Of a DNA stretch of 64,000 nucleotides, positions 48,595 to 56,553 are shown piece by piece. Source of the stretch: Malaciobacter pacificus (GTDB lineage: Bacteria; Campylobacterota; Campylobacteria; Campylobacterales; Arcobacteraceae). Location of the stretch: NCBI RefSeq assembly GCF_004214795.1, contig NZ_CP035928.1, forward strand, positions 1,178,001-1,242,000. The letters are read 5' to 3'. The notes beneath the pieces are model-generated. The model saw only the letters and a program-made list of their open reading frames with translations, did no database searches and was not told the origin of the DNA. The stretch's first letter is position 1. Each line of letters begins with the position of its first letter. A program made the translations under genes and the position numbers.

Positions 48595-49989
48595 TTATTT
48601 TAAGTCTGATGATACTATAACTTGATTTCTTCCATTTTGCTTTGCATTATACATCGCAATATCTGCTTTTGCTAAAACATCTTTTATTGATGTTTTTTTG
48701 TTAGCTTCACTTACTCCAAAAGATGCTGTTACTTTTCTAATTTTAAAATCGTTTTCTTCAATTAATTTTCTTAATCTTTCAGCAATCAAGTAAGCTTCAT
48801 GTTCTTTTGTGTTTTTACAAATCAATAAAAATTCTTCACCACCCCATCTTCCCAACACATCGTTAGAATTAATATTATTTTTAAGTAATTCAGCAATTTT
48901 TATTAGTACTTTATCTCCTTCAAGATGTCCAAATACATCATTTATTTCTTTAAAATTATCAATATCTAATAGGATTAAAGAGTATTTTTTATTTTGCAAT
49001 TTATTTAAAATTTCGTCAATTTTTCTTCTATTATATAGTTTTGTAAGTGCATCTGTTTTTGAAAGTTCTTCAAGTTGTCTATTGTATCTTTTTAAGTCTT
49101 TTTGTTTAAAAATATAAAAGATTAATAGAATGATTAAAAGTATCAAAGCCTGATAAAAGTATTCGTAGTCTACTAATCTTTTATCAAATTTTACAGTTAG
49201 CCATTGATTTATAAGATTAGCTTTATCCATAGGGGTAATTTGAGCAATATGTTTATTTACAATACTAAGTAATTCAGGATAATCACTTCTTATCATAAAA
49301 GAAATATTAACTCTCTCTTCACTTGTTCCTGAAATTTTTAGATTATAATAACCATTTATAGATATTAAATGCGCAATAACAGGAAGTATATCAATTACAG
49401 CATCAACTTTTCCTGCACTTAATAGTTTCATTGCAACTTCTGTATTTTTTACTTGCACAAAATTAATTTTAGGATATTTTTTTTTCATAATTACGTAAGA
49501 ACTATAGTTTTCACCCACAGCAACTTTTTTCCCTTCTAAAAAAGAACCCTTGGGAATAAATCTTTTATCAAATAGTGTTGCAAATGCAATTGGGAAAGAT
49601 ATATAAGGGGTGGTAAAGTTAGCATACTCTTTTTTCTTCGTATCGTATGTAGTTCCTAATGTTATATCTGCTGTTCTATTTTTAATAGATTCTAAAACTT
49701 CATTCCAATCTTTTGCAATAATTGTTTCTGAATTAATATTAGCTCTTTTAGAGATTAAATTCCAAAAATCTACAGCAATACCAGCAAGTTTTTCTTCCTC
49801 ATTATTCATATTTATAGGTGCCCAAGTTTTTGATGAAATGACTTTTACTCTATTGTTTTCTAAAAAAGTATTCTCTTCCTCACTTAATAATATATAAGAA
49901 GAATCATCTACTATATTATCTTTTCCATTGGCATATATTAAGTTTGTAAATATAAAACAAAAACATATGATTTTAAAAAAAATATTCAT
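48595..49989 (-). CDS. Sensory diguanylate cyclase with one periplasmic substrate-binding domain
   Basis: This 464-residue protein has a signal peptide (about 1-20), one SBP_bac_3-type domain (about 30-265: KTWAPINMNNEEEKLAGIAVDFWNLISKRA ... VAVGENYSSYVIMKKKYP), a membrane helix (about 280-298) and a GGDEF domain with the intact GRWGGEEF signature. It should synthesise cyclic di-GMP when a periplasmic solute binds. It is shorter than, but clearly related to, the cyclase at the left edge. The DUF309 gene lies 8 bp upstream. Confidence 0.92.
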   Translation of the reverse strand: MNIFFKIICFCFIFTNLIYANGKDNIVDDSSYILLSEEENTFLENNRVKVISSKTWAPINMNNEEEKLAGIAVDFWNLISKRANINSETIIAKDWNEVLESIKNRTADITLGTTYDTKKKEYANFTTPYISFPIAFATLFDKRFIPKGSFLEGKKVAVGENYSSYVIMKKKYPKINFVQVKNTEVAMKLLSAGKVDAVIDILPVIAHLISINGYYNLKISGTSEERVNISFMIRSDYPELLSIVNKHIAQITPMDKANLINQWLTVKFDKRLVDYEYFYQALILLIILLIFYIFKQKDLKRYNRQLEELSKTDALTKLYNRRKIDEILNKLQNKKYSLILLDIDNFKEINDVFGHLEGDKVLIKIAELLKNNINSNDVLGRWGGEEFLLICKNTKEHEAYLIAERLRKLIEENDFKIRKVTASFGVSEANKKTSIKDVLAKADIAMYNAKQNGRNQVIVSSDLK

Positions 49990-50343: not shown

Positions 50344-53160
50344 TCACTTTTGATTTAGTTCTTTATCTAAATAATATCCTGTGTAAGAACCTGATTTTTT
50401 ATGGTTTTTGGCTAAGTATTCTGGAGTTCCTTCATCAACAATTAGTCCTCCTTTACTTCCACCCTCAGGTCCCATATCAATTACCCAATCTGAATTTTTA
50501 ATTACATCAAGATTATGCTCAATTACTAATACTGAATTACCAACTTCAACTAAATGATGAAGTACTTTTGTAAGTCTATCAACATCTGCAAAGTGTAGAC
50601 CAGTTGTTGGTTCATCTAAAACATAAAGTGTATTTCCAGTATCTTTTTTACTTAACTCTTTTGATAATTTGATTCTTTGAGCCTCACCACCTGAAAGAGT
50701 GACTGCATTTTGTCCTAAAGTAATATATCCAAGTCCAACATCACTTAGTGTTTGAAGTTTTGCTTTGATTTTTGGAACCTTTGCAAAAAACTCTAAAGCT
50801 TCATCAACACTCATATTTAATACTTCCGAAATATTTTTTCCTTTGTATAAAATTTCTAATGTTTGAGCATTATATCTTTGACCTTGACAATCATCACATT
50901 TAACCATGATATCCGGTAAGAAGTGCATTTCAATTTTTATTTCACCTTCACCTTGACACTTCTCACATCTTCCACCTTTAACATTAAATGAGAACCTTCC
51001 TATTTTATATCCTCTCAAACTTGCCTCTTTTGTTTTAGAAAATAGTGTTCTAATCTCATCCATAAGACCAGTATAAGTAGCAGGATTTGATCTTGGAGTT
51101 CTTCCAATTGGACTTTGGTCTAGGTAAATTACTTTGTCAAGCTTTTCTAAACCAGTAATTTCAACTCCATCAACTTTATTTACTTTTCTAGCATGATTTA
51201 AAAGCTCTTTAGCAACAGGAAGTAGGGTTTGTAAAATAAGTGAAGATTTACCACTACCACTAACTCCTGTAATTGCACAAAGGTTTTTTAATGGAATTTG
51301 TACATCTAAATCTTTAATGTTGTTGATGGTTACATTTTTGATTTCTATAAATTCTTCTTGGGGTCTATTATGAACATAATCGATTTTTTTCTTTCCACTT
51401 ACATATTGTGCAGTTAAAGTTTTTGCTTTATTCATTTGAGCTAAAGTTCCATTAAAAACAATTTCTCCACCATATTTTCCAGCATTTGGTCCAATATCAA
51501 CTATATAATCAGCTGCTTCAATAGTCTCTTTATCATGTTCAACAACTATTACAGTGTTACCTTTTTCTTGTAATGCTTTTAATGTTTTAATTAATTTACT
51601 TGTATCTCTTTCATGTAATCCAATTGAAGGTTCATCAAGAACATACATAACTCCTGTAAGTCCAGAACCAATTTGACTTGCAACTCTAATTCTTTGAGCC
51701 TCTCCACCTGAAATAGTTCTAGCGTCTCTTCCAAGTGTAATATAACCAAGTCCAACATCATGTAAGAAGAAAATTCTCTCTTTAATCTCTTTTAAAATAG
51801 GTTTTGAAATCATTCTATTTTGTTCATTAAAGTATTCAAAGTTTTTTTCATCTTGGAAAAAGGCATGGGCATCTTCAATAGGTTGATTTATAATATCTGA
51901 AATAGTTTTTTTTGCTACAAAAACACTTTGGGAAGAGGGTTTTAGTCTATTTCCATTACAATCACTACATTTCTTTTCAGTCATGTATTCAGCCATATCT
52001 TTTTCATCTTTTATCATGTCGTAGGCAAGTTTTATTATACCTTCCCATTTTCTAGTAAGTTTATGTCTTTTCCAAGTAAATTTAGCTTCTTCAACTCCAC
52101 CATGCAAGATTGATTTTCTTTGATGTTCTGGTAACTCTCTAAAAGGAATTTTAATATCAATTCCAGCTGCTTCACAATAAGCCATAAGCATTTTAAAATA
52201 GAAACCTTTATTAAAACCATAAATAACTTTTATGGCACCATCTTCTAATGGTAACTCTTCATTAACTACTTTTTTCATATCAAGTGCATATCTAATACCT
52301 AATCCATCACAAGAACTACAAGCACCCTTTGGTGAATTAAATGAGAAAGATAAAGGTTCTAATGGTTCAAAAGAGATTTTACAATCAAAACATGCCATAT
52401 GTTCAGAATAGTGAATATGTTTTTCAACTCCTACTTCTTCATGGTTTAAAACTTCAATTTCAAGTTCTCCAAAACTCTCTTTTAAACCTTTTTCTACATC
52501 TTGTGCAATTCTATCTTTATTATCTTCTTTTATAACAACTCTATCAATTACTACTTTGATAGTGTGCATTTTATTTTTTTCTAACTCGATTTCTTCATCA
52601 AGTCTTGCCATAACGCCATCAATCATGGCTCTTACATAACCTTTACCCCTTAAGCTTTCAAGTAAATCAGCAAATGTACCTTTTTTTCTATTGATAAGTG
52701 GTGCTAAAATTACAACTTTTGAGTTATCAGGTAGTTTTAAAACTTGATCAATTACATCACTTGCACTCATTTGTGAAATTGGTTCACCACATTTATGACA
52801 GTGCTGTTTCCCAACTCTTGCATATAATAACCTTAGATAATCATATACTTCAGTAATTGTTCCAACTGTTGACCTTGGGTTTTTTGATGTTGTTTTTTGA
52901 TCAATTGCAATTGCAGGAGTTAATCCTTCAATTCTTTCAACATCAGGTTTTCCTACTTTATCTAAGAATTGTCTAGCATAAGCACTAAGACTCTCTATAT
53001 ATCTTCTCTGACCCTCTGCATAAAGTGTGTCAAAAGCAAGGGTTGATTTACCAGAACCTGATAGTCCTGTAAATACGATAAGTTTATTTTTTGGTATTTC
53101 TAAATTAATATTTTTTAAATTATTTTCTTTTGCATTAAAAATTTTGATTGAATCTTTCAT
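50344..53160 (-). CDS. uvrA: Excinuclease ABC subunit A
   Basis: This 938-residue protein is full length. It has the first P-loop GLSGSGKSTLAFDT, the zinc modules CHKCGEPISQM..., CFDCKISFEPLEPLSFSFNSPKGACSSCDGLG and CEKCQGEGEIKIEMHFLPDIMVKCDDCQGQRYN, signature motifs TISGGEAQRIR and TLSGGEAQRIK, and Walker B regions YVLDEPSIGLHERD and YVLDEPTTGLHFAD. It recognises bulky DNA damage and loads UvrB for nucleotide excision repair. No anomalies are seen. Confidence 0.98.
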   Translation of the reverse strand: MKDSIKIFNAKENNLKNINLEIPKNKLIVFTGLSGSGKSTLAFDTLYAEGQRRYIESLSAYARQFLDKVGKPDVERIEGLTPAIAIDQKTTSKNPRSTVGTITEVYDYLRLLYARVGKQHCHKCGEPISQMSASDVIDQVLKLPDNSKVVILAPLINRKKGTFADLLESLRGKGYVRAMIDGVMARLDEEIELEKNKMHTIKVVIDRVVIKEDNKDRIAQDVEKGLKESFGELEIEVLNHEEVGVEKHIHYSEHMACFDCKISFEPLEPLSFSFNSPKGACSSCDGLGIRYALDMKKVVNEELPLEDGAIKVIYGFNKGFYFKMLMAYCEAAGIDIKIPFRELPEHQRKSILHGGVEEAKFTWKRHKLTRKWEGIIKLAYDMIKDEKDMAEYMTEKKCSDCNGNRLKPSSQSVFVAKKTISDIINQPIEDAHAFFQDEKNFEYFNEQNRMISKPILKEIKERIFFLHDVGLGYITLGRDARTISGGEAQRIRVASQIGSGLTGVMYVLDEPSIGLHERDTSKLIKTLKALQEKGNTVIVVEHDKETIEAADYIVDIGPNAGKYGGEIVFNGTLAQMNKAKTLTAQYVSGKKKIDYVHNRPQEEFIEIKNVTINNIKDLDVQIPLKNLCAITGVSGSGKSSLILQTLLPVAKELLNHARKVNKVDGVEITGLEKLDKVIYLDQSPIGRTPRSNPATYTGLMDEIRTLFSKTKEASLRGYKIGRFSFNVKGGRCEKCQGEGEIKIEMHFLPDIMVKCDDCQGQRYNAQTLEILYKGKNISEVLNMSVDEALEFFAKVPKIKAKLQTLSDVGLGYITLGQNAVTLSGGEAQRIKLSKELSKKDTGNTLYVLDEPTTGLHFADVDRLTKVLHHLVEVGNSVLVIEHNLDVIKNSDWVIDMGPEGGSKGGLIVDEGTPEYLAKNHKKSGSYTGYYLDKELNQK

Positions 53161-53272
53161 AAATAGCTGCCTTTAAAATTTTGAAGCTGATATTATAAGA
53201 TAGATTAGATAATAATCTATTAAAGATAATTTGGATATCTTAAAAAGTTACTAACATAAAAAGGTTATTAGT

Positions 53273-55810
53273 GTGAATAGATATATTAATAATTTTAAAT
53301 TTGGTGATAATACATTTTATTACTGTGATTTAAAGAGAATATTTAATGACTATCCTGCTTTAGAGAAACTTCCAAATTGTTTAAAAATATTATTAGAAGT
53401 TAATTTAAGAACTTGTGAAGAAAATAATATAAATAAGGTTATTGATATATTTATATCAAAGATTAAAAATAAAAAAATAGTTTTTGAACCAACTAGAATC
53501 ATAATGCAAGATTTAAGTGCAATTCCAATACTAATTGATTTAGCAACAATGCGAGATCAAGCAGAGAATTTTGGAGTTGATTTAAAGAAGGTTAATCCCC
53601 AGATTATGGTTGATTTAGTGGTTGATCATTCTTTAAATATTGAAAAAACTAGTTCCTTTGACAGTGTTGAAATAAATTTAGAAAATGAAATAAAAAGAAA
53701 TTCAGAAAGATATAAATTTATAAAATGGGCAAGTTCTCAATTTGAAAATCTTTCTGTAGTTCCACCTGGTTTTGGAATTTCCCATCAAGTAAATTTAGAA
53801 TATTTATCAACAATGATAAATATAAAAGAAATAGAAGATAAGTTTTTTATTTTCCCTGAGTGTATTGTAGGAACTGACTTACACACAAGTATGGTAAATG
53901 CTTTAGGTATTTTAGCTTGGGAAGTAGGGGAAATGGAATCTCAAAGTATTATGTTTGGTTTAAATTCGCCTTTTTATTTACCAAAAGTTACGGGAATAAA
54001 AATTGAGGGAAAATTACAAAGTGGTATTACTATAAATGATGTGGTTTTAAGTTTAACAAAATTTATAAATGAGCAAGAAACACATCAAGAGTTTGTAGAA
54101 TTTTTTGGTGAAGGTGTTAAAGAATTATCCTTAGAAGATAGGGCAGCAATATCAAATATGGCAAATGAGTATAATGTAGCTGTTTCATTTTTTGGGGTAG
54201 ATGATAATACAATAGCATATATTGAAAAGACTAGGGGAGTTGATGCTTCATTTATAAAAGAGTATTTTAAACTTCAAGATATGTATAATAAATATGAAGA
54301 TTTTGACTTTGATGAAGTTTTAGAATTTGATTTATCACAAGTAAAATCAGTTGTTGCGGGACCTTCTAGAAGTGAAGAAAAAGTTTTAGTAAATAAAGTT
54401 CCAAGTAAATTAAAGAGTTTTAAAAGAGGAAACCTTTTAAAAGCAAATGACATAGTTTTAGCAAGTATTACTTCTTGTTTAAGTACTTCAAACCCAAGTT
54501 TAATTATTCAAGCTGGATTATTAATAAAAAATGCAATAGAGTTTGGATTAGAAATTAATCCAAATATCAAAAAAATATTCACACCTGGTTCTCATAGTGT
54601 TACAAGCTATTTAAAGCATTTAGATTTATTAAAGTTTTTTGAATATGTTGGTTTTAATATTTCTGGTTATGGTTGTGTAAGTTGTATTGGAAATAGTGGG
54701 AAACTATTGCCAGGAATTGAAGAAGAAATAGTTAATTATGATTTGGATGTTAGTTCTGTAAGTAGTGGGAACAGAAATTTTAAAGAAAATTCTAATCCTT
54801 TAATAAAATCAAACTGGTTAATGTCTCCAGCTCTTGTTATTGCATATTGTTTTAAGGGAACTATTAATTGTAATATTATTGATGATGAAATTGCAAAGGG
54901 TGTTTACTTAAAAGATATTTGGCCAAGTAATAAAGAGTTAAATGAATATTTAAAAAAGATACAAAGTGATATTTATTTAAAAAGTTACAATAACCTTTTT
55001 TTAGGAAATATTTATTGGCAATCATTAGATATTGCAACAACAGCAAAATATGAGTGGGATGATGATTCTACTTATATTCACTCATCATTATCTTTCAAAA
55101 ATCTAGACCTTGAAAAAATAGAGATTAAAAATGCAAGGGTTTTAGCTGTATTGGGCGATAATATTTTAAATGAAGATATTTCTGCGATTGGTAAGATTAA
55201 AGAAGATTCCTTAGCTGGACAGTATCTGCTATCAAAAAATATTAAAAGTAATGAATTAGATACCTTTGAAAATAGAAAAGGGAATATTGATTTAATGATT
55301 AGAGGGATTCTTTCAAGTCCTAATTTAGAAAATCTATTAATATCTCCCAAAAAGGGTAGTTTAACTAGAGACTTTCAAACTAAAGAGATAGTTGGTATTT
55401 TTGAATATTGTGAGAAAATGAAAAAGATGAATATTCCTTTGGTTTTATTTGCAGGTGAAAATTTTGGTGGAGGAGTTGTTCGAGATTGGGCTTCAAGAGG
55501 ATTGAGTTTACTTGGAGTAAAAGCAATTATTGCAAAATCTTTTGACCATAGTTTTAAAACTAATTTAGTAAGGGTAGGAGTTTTACCTTTAGAGTTTGAT
55601 AAAGAAGGATTAGAAAATATAGAATTAACAGGAGATGAATTAATATCTATAAAAAGAAGAAATTTAATTCCAAATGAAAAAATTGAGCTTAATATTTTAA
55701 AAAAAGGTTTAAATAAAACTCTTGTTCTTAGATCGAAATTAGAAAATTTACAAGAAGTTGAGTTTTATAGAAATGGTGGGGTATTATCTTATATATTAAA
55801 ACATTTATAG
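53273..55810 (+). CDS. Divergent aconitase-like protein lacking key catalytic residues
   Basis: This 845-residue protein has all four aconitase domains in AcnA order. Conserved parts are QDLSAIPILIDLATMRD, DLVVDHSLN, PPGFGISHQVNLEYL, NMANEYN, the [4Fe-4S] cysteines Cys402 (SITSCLSTSNPS), Cys468 and Cys471 (GYGCVSCIGNSG), and LGVKAIIAKSF. Active-site positions differ: the Gly-Ser-Ser-Arg-Asp-Trp motif is GVVRDW (Val735, Val736), the arginine of Asn-Phe-Glu-Gly-Arg is Asn506 (RNFKEN) and GTDSHT is GTDLHT. Citrate/isocitrate isomerisation is therefore unlikely; a different substrate or an RNA-binding, iron-sensing role is possible. It starts at GTG with AAAAGG upstream. Codon use and A+T content resemble the neighbours. 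Confidence 0.85.
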   Translation: MNRYINNFKFGDNTFYYCDLKRIFNDYPALEKLPNCLKILLEVNLRTCEENNINKVIDIFISKIKNKKIVFEPTRIIMQDLSAIPILIDLATMRDQAENFGVDLKKVNPQIMVDLVVDHSLNIEKTSSFDSVEINLENEIKRNSERYKFIKWASSQFENLSVVPPGFGISHQVNLEYLSTMINIKEIEDKFFIFPECIVGTDLHTSMVNALGILAWEVGEMESQSIMFGLNSPFYLPKVTGIKIEGKLQSGITINDVVLSLTKFINEQETHQEFVEFFGEGVKELSLEDRAAISNMANEYNVAVSFFGVDDNTIAYIEKTRGVDASFIKEYFKLQDMYNKYEDFDFDEVLEFDLSQVKSVVAGPSRSEEKVLVNKVPSKLKSFKRGNLLKANDIVLASITSCLSTSNPSLIIQAGLLIKNAIEFGLEINPNIKKIFTPGSHSVTSYLKHLDLLKFFEYVGFNISGYGCVSCIGNSGKLLPGIEEEIVNYDLDVSSVSSGNRNFKENSNPLIKSNWLMSPALVIAYCFKGTINCNIIDDEIAKGVYLKDIWPSNKELNEYLKKIQSDIYLKSYNNLFLGNIYWQSLDIATTAKYEWDDDSTYIHSSLSFKNLDLEKIEIKNARVLAVLGDNILNEDISAIGKIKEDSLAGQYLLSKNIKSNELDTFENRKGNIDLMIRGILSSPNLENLLISPKKGSLTRDFQTKEIVGIFEYCEKMKKMNIPLVLFAGENFGGGVVRDWASRGLSLLGVKAIIAKSFDHSFKTNLVRVGVLPLEFDKEGLENIELTGDELISIKRRNLIPNEKIELNILKKGLNKTLVLRSKLENLQEVEFYRNGGVLSYILKHL

Positions 55811-55830
55811 GATTATGATATAAATGTTTT
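55798..55830. terminator. Hairpin between convergent aconitase-like and TSUP genes
   Basis: AAAACATTTATA and its complement (12 bp, 9-base loop) end in a T4 tract on the plus strand and A4 (T4 on the minus strand) on the other side. The stop codons of both genes fall inside it. Confidence 0.6.
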
Positions 55831-56553
55831 ATATATCATTATAATAAGTATTAAAATATTTAATATTAAGATATATTTTTTATAAGAGTTTGAATTTATA
55901 GTGTGTTTAGCTTTTATTCCAAAAAATACGCCAATTAATGAAGCTATACCTACAATGGCACCTTCTAAAAATAGCATATGCCCATGTAAAGACATTGATG
56001 TAAATCCAGCAATTGAAGAAAATATTACGAAAAATAGTCCTAGTGAAGTTGCAGATTTTAAATCATATCTTAAAAATCCTACTAATATTGGTGTTAATAA
56101 AATAGAACCACCAACACCTATACTCATAGCAAAAATACCAATTACAAAACCTATAATAAATAAAACTAATTTATTTTGTTTTTTAGATTCTTCATTGTGT
56201 TCAGCAGGGGAGAAGAAAATTTTTACAATTGAGAAAATTAAAATCCCAATAAAAATATATTGTAGAGTTTCATTTGATACATTTGAAACAATTAAACCAC
56301 TTTGAAGACCACCTACAAAGCCTCCAATACCAATAATAATTCCATCTTTTAATACATTTTTTGCTTTTTTAGCATTTAAAAATGAGCCATAAATTGAACT
56401 AAATACCATTTGCATGATAGAAATCGCAATTGCTTGCTTCATTAAAAACCCAGCAAGCAATAGCATTGGAACAAGAACCATTCCTCCCCCAACTCCAAAA
56501 AAGCCAGAGATAAATCCTGTTAATACACCAAATAGTAAAAGTTCAATAATCAT
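55813..56553 (-). CDS. TSUP (TauE/SafE) family membrane carrier
   Basis: This 246-residue protein has about eight hydrophobic helices in two halves. It opens LLLFGVLTGFISGFFGVGGGMVLVPMLL, the TauE/SafE signature, repeated in the second half as IGFVIGIFAMSIGVGGSILLTPIL. Members export sulfite, sulfoacetate or related organosulfur anions. It is encoded 2 bp after cysE, so a link with cysteine/sulfur metabolism is plausible but inferred from context. Confidence 0.9.
   Translation of the reverse strand: MIIELLLFGVLTGFISGFFGVGGGMVLVPMLLLAGFLMKQAIAISIMQMVFSSIYGSFLNAKKAKNVLKDGIIIGIGGFVGGLQSGLIVSNVSNETLQYIFIGILIFSIVKIFFSPAEHNEESKKQNKLVLFIIGFVIGIFAMSIGVGGSILLTPILVGFLRYDLKSATSLGLFFVIFSSIAGFTSMSLHGHMLFLEGAIVGIASLIGVFFGIKAKHTINSNSYKKYILILNILILIIMIYKTFIS

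Follow-up and report, generated by a model that had tools for sequence, protein, structure and literature searches.

A retained, probably non-catalytic AcnA-family paralogue in Arcobacteraceae, tentatively likened to the RNA-binding protein IRP2

What is an aconitase kept for when its catalytic residues are gone? The question is raised by a gene in the 64,000-nucleotide stretch of Malaciobacter pacificus DNA analysed here (the window; the genome is a single contig of 2.66 Mb). An initial annotation had described its product as an aconitase-fold protein with the Fe-S cysteines but without catalytic serines, and had suggested either an IRP-like RNA-binding sensor or a hydro-lyase with a new substrate. 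The frame contains no internal stop over 845 codons, and the protein matches both the Pfam Aconitase and Aconitase_C models. It scores above the cut-off of the NCBIfam AcnA model NF006757 (863 bits against 686), below that of the AcnA equivalog TIGR01341, which stands for the same function (840.6 against 945), and below that of the AcnD model TIGR02333 (538.9 against 1419.85). Since the gene also lies in a uvrA/tauE context and not among methylcitrate genes, it does not belong to AcnD. Its coordinates and those of the features discussed below are collected in Table 1.

In pig mitochondrial aconitase, Ser642 is the catalytic base, three cysteines are the cluster ligands and Arg447, Arg452, Arg580 and Arg644 contact the substrate. 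The M. pacificus protein was aligned with human IRP1 and IRP2 (taken from the PDB) and with 21 canonical AcnA/AcnD rows; motif names follow the pig numbering and residues that of the M. pacificus protein. The alignments bear out the residues named initially, that is, the three cysteines in aconitase contexts and the Val735-Val736, Asn506 and Asp-Leu-His substitutions, and the intact frame with a ribosome site was likewise confirmed (GTG start, AAAAAGG). They add two changes that had gone unnamed: Thr-Asp-His at residues 633-635 has become Asn-Glu-Asp, and SCLSTSNP stands in the loop that is canonically SCTNTSNP. The sequence to either side of the motifs is preserved, so that an accidental alignment of these positions was rejected. 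In all, 14 of the 20 canonical active-site and ligand positions are kept in the M. pacificus protein, compared with 2-16 across its clade (described below) and 18-20 in the 21 canonical rows. The protein thus retains the three cluster cysteines of AcnA and lacks the catalytic set (Ser642-Ser643, Arg452 and Asp-Ser-His), so that normal aconitase turnover has very likely been lost.

Table 1. Features of the pseudo-aconitase locus, in positions of the window.
Feature	Position	Strand	Basis
uvrA, divergent neighbour, same side in carriers	50344..53160	-	synteny
Promoter-like block (TTAAAGATAATTTGGATATCTTAA), common to orthologues	53220..53243	+	upstream alignments
Ribosome-binding-like AAAAAGG	53258..53264	+	sequence read; ends 8 bases 5' of GTG
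Pseudo-aconitase gene, AcnA family, 845 aa, GTG start	53273..55810	+	ORF translation, HMM matches, 34 intact syntenic orthologues
Asp118-His119 (Asp100-His101 of pig aconitase), kept in M. pacificus	53624..53629	+	alignment; His kept in 8/34 orthologues
Asp202-Leu203-His204-Thr205, standing for Asp-Ser-His-Thr	53876..53887	+	alignment
Cys402, first cluster ligand, kept	54476..54478	+	alignment; 20/34 orthologues
Cys468 and Cys471, second and third cluster ligands, kept	54674..54685	+	alignment; 12/34 and 4/34 orthologues
Asn506 replacing substrate Arg452	54788..54790	+	alignment
Glu634-Asp635 replacing Asp-His of conserved TTDHIS	55172..55177	+	alignment
Arg668 (Arg580 of pig aconitase)	55274..55276	+	alignment; kept in 34/34 orthologues
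Val735-Val736-Arg737 replacing Ser642-Ser643-Arg644	55475..55483	+	alignment
tauE-like permease gene; marks the other side of the slot with cysE, speA and hisS	55813..56553	-	synteny

Four members of the aconitase family were found in the M. pacificus genome, this gene included. One is AcnD (L001, 865 aa), which stands next to a citrate-synthase-type gene, falls in the AcnD clade of the tree and keeps 18 of the 20 active-site residues; another is AcnB; the fourth, a 445-codon frame, was assigned to the LeuC type by frame size and family only. AcnB occurs in 99 of 104 Arcobacteraceae genomes, with 72-95% identity where near full length. In the A. butzleri genome paper AcnB is assigned the TCA cycle step and AcnD that of the methylcitrate pathway, and only these two are described (PMC2147049). 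The search for a second, canonical aconitase was therefore answered by two enzymes, and with AcnB and AcnD in the genome the enzymatic steps are covered without the pseudo-aconitase.

The carriers belong to the Arcobacteraceae, which live mostly in the sea. To place the gene in its family, 104 Arcobacteraceae genomes were searched, several of the relatives being metagenome assemblies; besides AcnD, intact orthologues were found in 34 of them and fragments in three. The orthologues share a syntenic slot, with uvrA on one side and tauE-cysE-speA-hisS-tmk-coaD-ubiX on the other and at times a few inserted genes; in this comparison the truncated G089 copy was recognised by the tauE side only and the flanks of G088 were left out. 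No conserved operon partner was found in the slot, whose neighbours are unrelated housekeeping genes. A gene for a solute-binding plus GGDEF protein (48595-49989) is present in about a third of otherwise syntenic loci. In a tree built without the active-site columns, by a quick search, the 34 proteins group as a single separate clade with support 100, adjoining canonical AcnA and set off by a long stem of 0.76 changes per column; the sister is the canonical AcnA L028 (support 88), its closest canonical relative in the tree. L028 (1486-4131 on contig 5 of G033) keeps 20 of 20 active-site residues and lies at another locus than the pseudo-aconitase of the same genome. Recent horizontal transfer was rejected on the grounds that the slot is the same throughout and that the canonical AcnA of G033 lies elsewhere. 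No member of the degenerate clade was seen outside Arcobacteraceae among 399 genomes drawn from the order, where the matches inspected outside the family were canonical AcnA or AcnD. A contig search with the single M. pacificus protein gave no match, and one with the clade alignment gave 14 loci, all in Arcobacter-type records and apparently from genomes already counted; the named carriers are Poseidonibacter, Arcobacter species or uncultured Campylobacterales.

The same catalytic site is lost across this whole clade and the replacements differ, which argues that the substitutions in M. pacificus are not due to chance. A serine stands at the Ser642 position in one of the 34 proteins, the others having E, K, N, D, V, T, Q or Y, while Arg452 is kept in 4/34 and His101 in 8/34. 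Loss of Ser642 in 33/34 supports the early view that normal turnover is unlikely. The Val-Val pair, sought in relatives, proved particular to M. pacificus, whereas loss of the first serine is clade-wide. Where canonical proteins are invariant, the clade retains the canonical residue at a mean frequency of 0.38 in the active site and of 0.58 in the rest of the protein (p 0.007). Given the variety of residues at these positions, catalysis at the old site appears very unlikely for the clade, and this bears directly on the suggested hydro-lyase, in which a rebuilt active site would act on a new substrate. The M. pacificus protein does keep the cluster ligands, Arg668, Arg737, Asp202 and His204, as such an enzyme might; among the orthologues, however, many different residues occupy the former catalytic positions, and cluster ligands are missing from most of the proteins, making a common chemistry at the old site implausible. 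We consider a hydro-lyase of this kind highly improbable.

The cluster ligands have fared little better than the catalytic residues. With the caveat that loss counts depend on the alignment of gap-rich loops, Cys358 is kept in 20/34 orthologues, Cys421 in 12/34 and Cys424 in 4/34. The triad is complete in three proteins only (M. pacificus, L008 and L009); two cysteines remain in 10 of the others, one in 7 and none in 14. Loss of the whole triad requires at least two changes by parsimony, or five if regain is excluded. In G065 and G067, which sit on different branches of the tree, the cluster domain itself has been removed by an in-frame deletion of about residues 345-570 (frames L105 9056-10900 and L107 8865-10865, with lengths of 668 and 619 codons between the two). 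The most parsimonious order would be that catalysis was lost first, with one change at Ser642, and the cluster afterwards. This distribution weighs heavily on the reading of the protein as an IRP1-like sensor, in which an oxidant- or iron-labile Fe-S cluster would switch RNA binding. Retention of three cysteines and both ligand loops in the M. pacificus protein, L008 and L009 speaks for it, but 31 of 34 orthologues at the same locus lack at least one ligand, 14 lack all of them, two genomes lack the cluster domain, and purifying selection is just as evident in pairs that have no cysteine of the triad (below). As judged from these residue patterns, a cluster-based sensor is ruled out as the common function of the clade, though it could still apply to the M. 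pacificus protein alone; overall we regard it as improbable.

Fifteen residues are fixed, or nearly so, specifically in the clade, and four of these are acid-to-lysine changes (at 190, 329, 444 and 755), of which the one at 444 is missing from the M. pacificus protein. These four changes could form a new polyanion- or partner-binding surface.

Is the protein simply decaying? An unneeded acnA, its frames still intact by inertia, would explain why uvrA and tauE are directly adjacent in three genomes without the gene, and why other copies are damaged: that of G098 (L108 8906-10546) is disrupted by frame changes and has also lost about 230 codons, in a deletion that extends into domain 4, and G088 and G089 retain C-terminal parts only, although in all three an assembly error is possible. 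The broken and truncated copies imply that the gene is dispensable in some lineages, and its absence or breakage in many relatives means that any role is not essential. Slow decay would also fit the rapid evolution of the protein. Median identity to the M. pacificus protein is 43% among orthologues and 90% for uvrA, with uvrA, cysE, speA, tauE and hisS spanning 72-90%. By a simple Nei-Gojobori estimate, however, dN/dS in close pairs (82-95% identical) is 0.06-0.19, three to four times that of uvrA, cysE and speA in the same pairs (0.03-0.05) and yet low in all domains, with medians of 0.14, 0.14, 0.19 (linker) and 0.12. Hence the former cluster domain 3 is as constrained as the rest in most lineages, and the cysteine-less pairs L010-L011 and L032-L033 show the same purifying selection. 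The existence of 34 intact frames at 33-49% identity rules out a sequencing or frameshift artefact and, together with invariant residues such as Arg668, also speaks against a relic, an explanation that we hold to be distinctly unlikely. By these comparisons the protein is fast-evolving but constrained, in agreement with the earlier proposal that it is under selection as a protein. Loss of catalytic residues and purifying selection, the two marks of a selected pseudoenzyme, are thus found together, and we conclude with considerable confidence that the gene encodes a selected, non-catalytic pseudo-aconitase.

We then compared this protein with known systems that might indicate its role. IRP1 and bacterial AcnA belong to the same family, and their apo form is open and RNA-binding; the difference is that the cluster switches them between enzyme and RNA binder, whereas in the pseudo-aconitase the residues needed for catalysis in the enzyme state are missing. 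The nearest canonical relatives of the clade are AcnA proteins (NF006757, TIGR01341), which keep Ser642 and the other residues lost in the clade, and AcnD, the 2-methylisocitrate dehydratase of the same superfamily and the same genome, keeps its catalytic site and forms a separate clade. For the substitutions in M. pacificus the nearest precedent, from the alignment, is IRP2: it has the AcnA-type fold, its first catalytic serine is replaced (by Asn), the Arg580-type residue and the three cysteines are kept as in the M. pacificus protein, and in IRP2 Arg447 is replaced by Lys. IRP2 is a vertebrate protein with a 73-residue insert, FBXL5-controlled degradation and known RNA targets. A further difference is that most members of the bacterial clade have lost cysteines. 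IRP2 has been described as being without aconitase activity (PMC4056636), the apo form of mycobacterial AcnA binds RNA (PMC7527780), and so does the apo form of E. coli AcnB (PMC4150767).

An AlphaFold2 model of the M. pacificus protein, built on an alignment of 31 clade members, has a confident aconitase fold (pLDDT 86, pTM 0.85). It is least certain for residues 120-134, 168-171, 403-405 and 469-474, which lie close to the former active site and within the cluster loops. The model resembles the IRP1 structures 3sn2 and 3snp: it fits open, RNA-bound IRP1 (3sn2; TM 0.80, rmsd 4.9), with domain 4 placed alike, better than closed IRP1 (2b3x; TM 0.71, rmsd 8.1), and IRP2 (6vcd; Z 40.8, rmsd 2.7) is the top fit, tied with RNA-bound IRP1. 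A control model of the canonical AcnA L028 with 19 canonical relatives gave the reverse (2b3x, TM 0.88 and rmsd 3.9; 3sn2, TM 0.59 and rmsd 12.3). The pseudo-aconitase is thus predicted open and the canonical control closed, a clear contrast, with alignments of different depth behind the two predictions. Openness may stem from the input alignment, whose members have lost interdomain contacts, rather than from the protein itself, and an open form alone is no proof of RNA binding. Nor does charge speak for RNA binding, since overall the protein is not shifted towards the basic side relative to canonical AcnA (pI about 5.4). Of the IRP analogy first drawn for this protein, the part that stands is the open, apo, RNA-bound-like predicted arrangement together with the IRP2 precedent; the cluster-based switch does not, as a function common to the clade.

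The IRP2 precedent and the bacterial apo-aconitases that bind RNA lead us to rank an RNA binder first and a protein scaffold second. RNA as the ligand is, by this analogy, possible rather than probable: at the locus neither an operon partner nor an IRE-like element points to RNA, no IRE or other known RNA was matched in Rfam at gathering threshold between 47 and 62 kb, and two genomes have lost domain 3, which in IRP1 contributes to the RNA-binding cleft. Tolerance of that deletion would suit a protein that uses an AcnA surface to bind and regulate TCA enzymes such as isocitrate dehydrogenase, citrate synthase, AcnB or AcnD, as would the conservation of the fold and many scaffold positions but not of the active site. 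Pseudoenzymes often regulate their active relatives, and a model of an AcnA-isocitrate dehydrogenase complex is present in the PDB (9a4j). Against such a scaffold, no partner is encoded nearby, the neighbours being housekeeping genes of other kinds, and we judge it unlikely, if less so than a cluster sensor or a relic.

We therefore put forward the following scheme tentatively, as a whole somewhat less probable than even. In an ancestral member of the Arcobacteraceae, an AcnA-type gene lying between uvrA and tauE would have lost the Ser642 base and one substrate arginine, the folded protein then being kept for a non-enzymatic role. Following this loss of catalysis, the cluster ligands and what remained of the active site would have drifted away repeatedly, the M. 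pacificus protein being a less eroded member in which the three cysteines are still present. The protein would act as a permanently apo, open-cleft binder like IRP2 or apo-IRP1, most likely of RNA, and so as a post-transcriptional regulator. The fuller proposition, that this paralogue is the equivalent of IRP2 in Arcobacteraceae, always apo and devoted to post-transcriptional regulation by binding RNA, is more doubtful.

The start codon is TTG in 28 of the 34 orthologues and ATG in five, GTG being confined to the M. pacificus gene, and an AGG-type ribosome site precedes it in most. Conservation of a weak start codon in the clade suggests tuned low expression. The upstream block of the orthologues resembles ATTAAA..ATTTGGATATCTTAA / ATTTGCTATTTTA. 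It was not seen by eye in the three empty uvrA-tauE slots, and in M. pacificus it is possibly a promoter or regulator site.

Among open-access papers we found none that uses the term pseudo-aconitase, and those on Arcobacter and aconitate hydratase, covered mostly as titles and abstracts, made no such paralogue evident; no account of a bacterial pseudo-aconitase family was met in the open-access literature searched. Bacterial aconitases have been described as moonlighting proteins that bind RNA once the cluster is lost. The vertically inherited clade described here constitutes a natural experiment, in which catalysis appears to have been dropped first and the cluster several times later while the protein is still selected, and which separates a non-catalytic role from the enzyme. 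If the IRP2-like reading is true, the lineage would show the stepwise passage from a moonlighting enzyme to a single-function regulator. Metabolic models of these bacteria should take into account that many Arcobacteraceae genes likely to carry the annotation aconitate hydratase AcnA probably do not encode aconitases.
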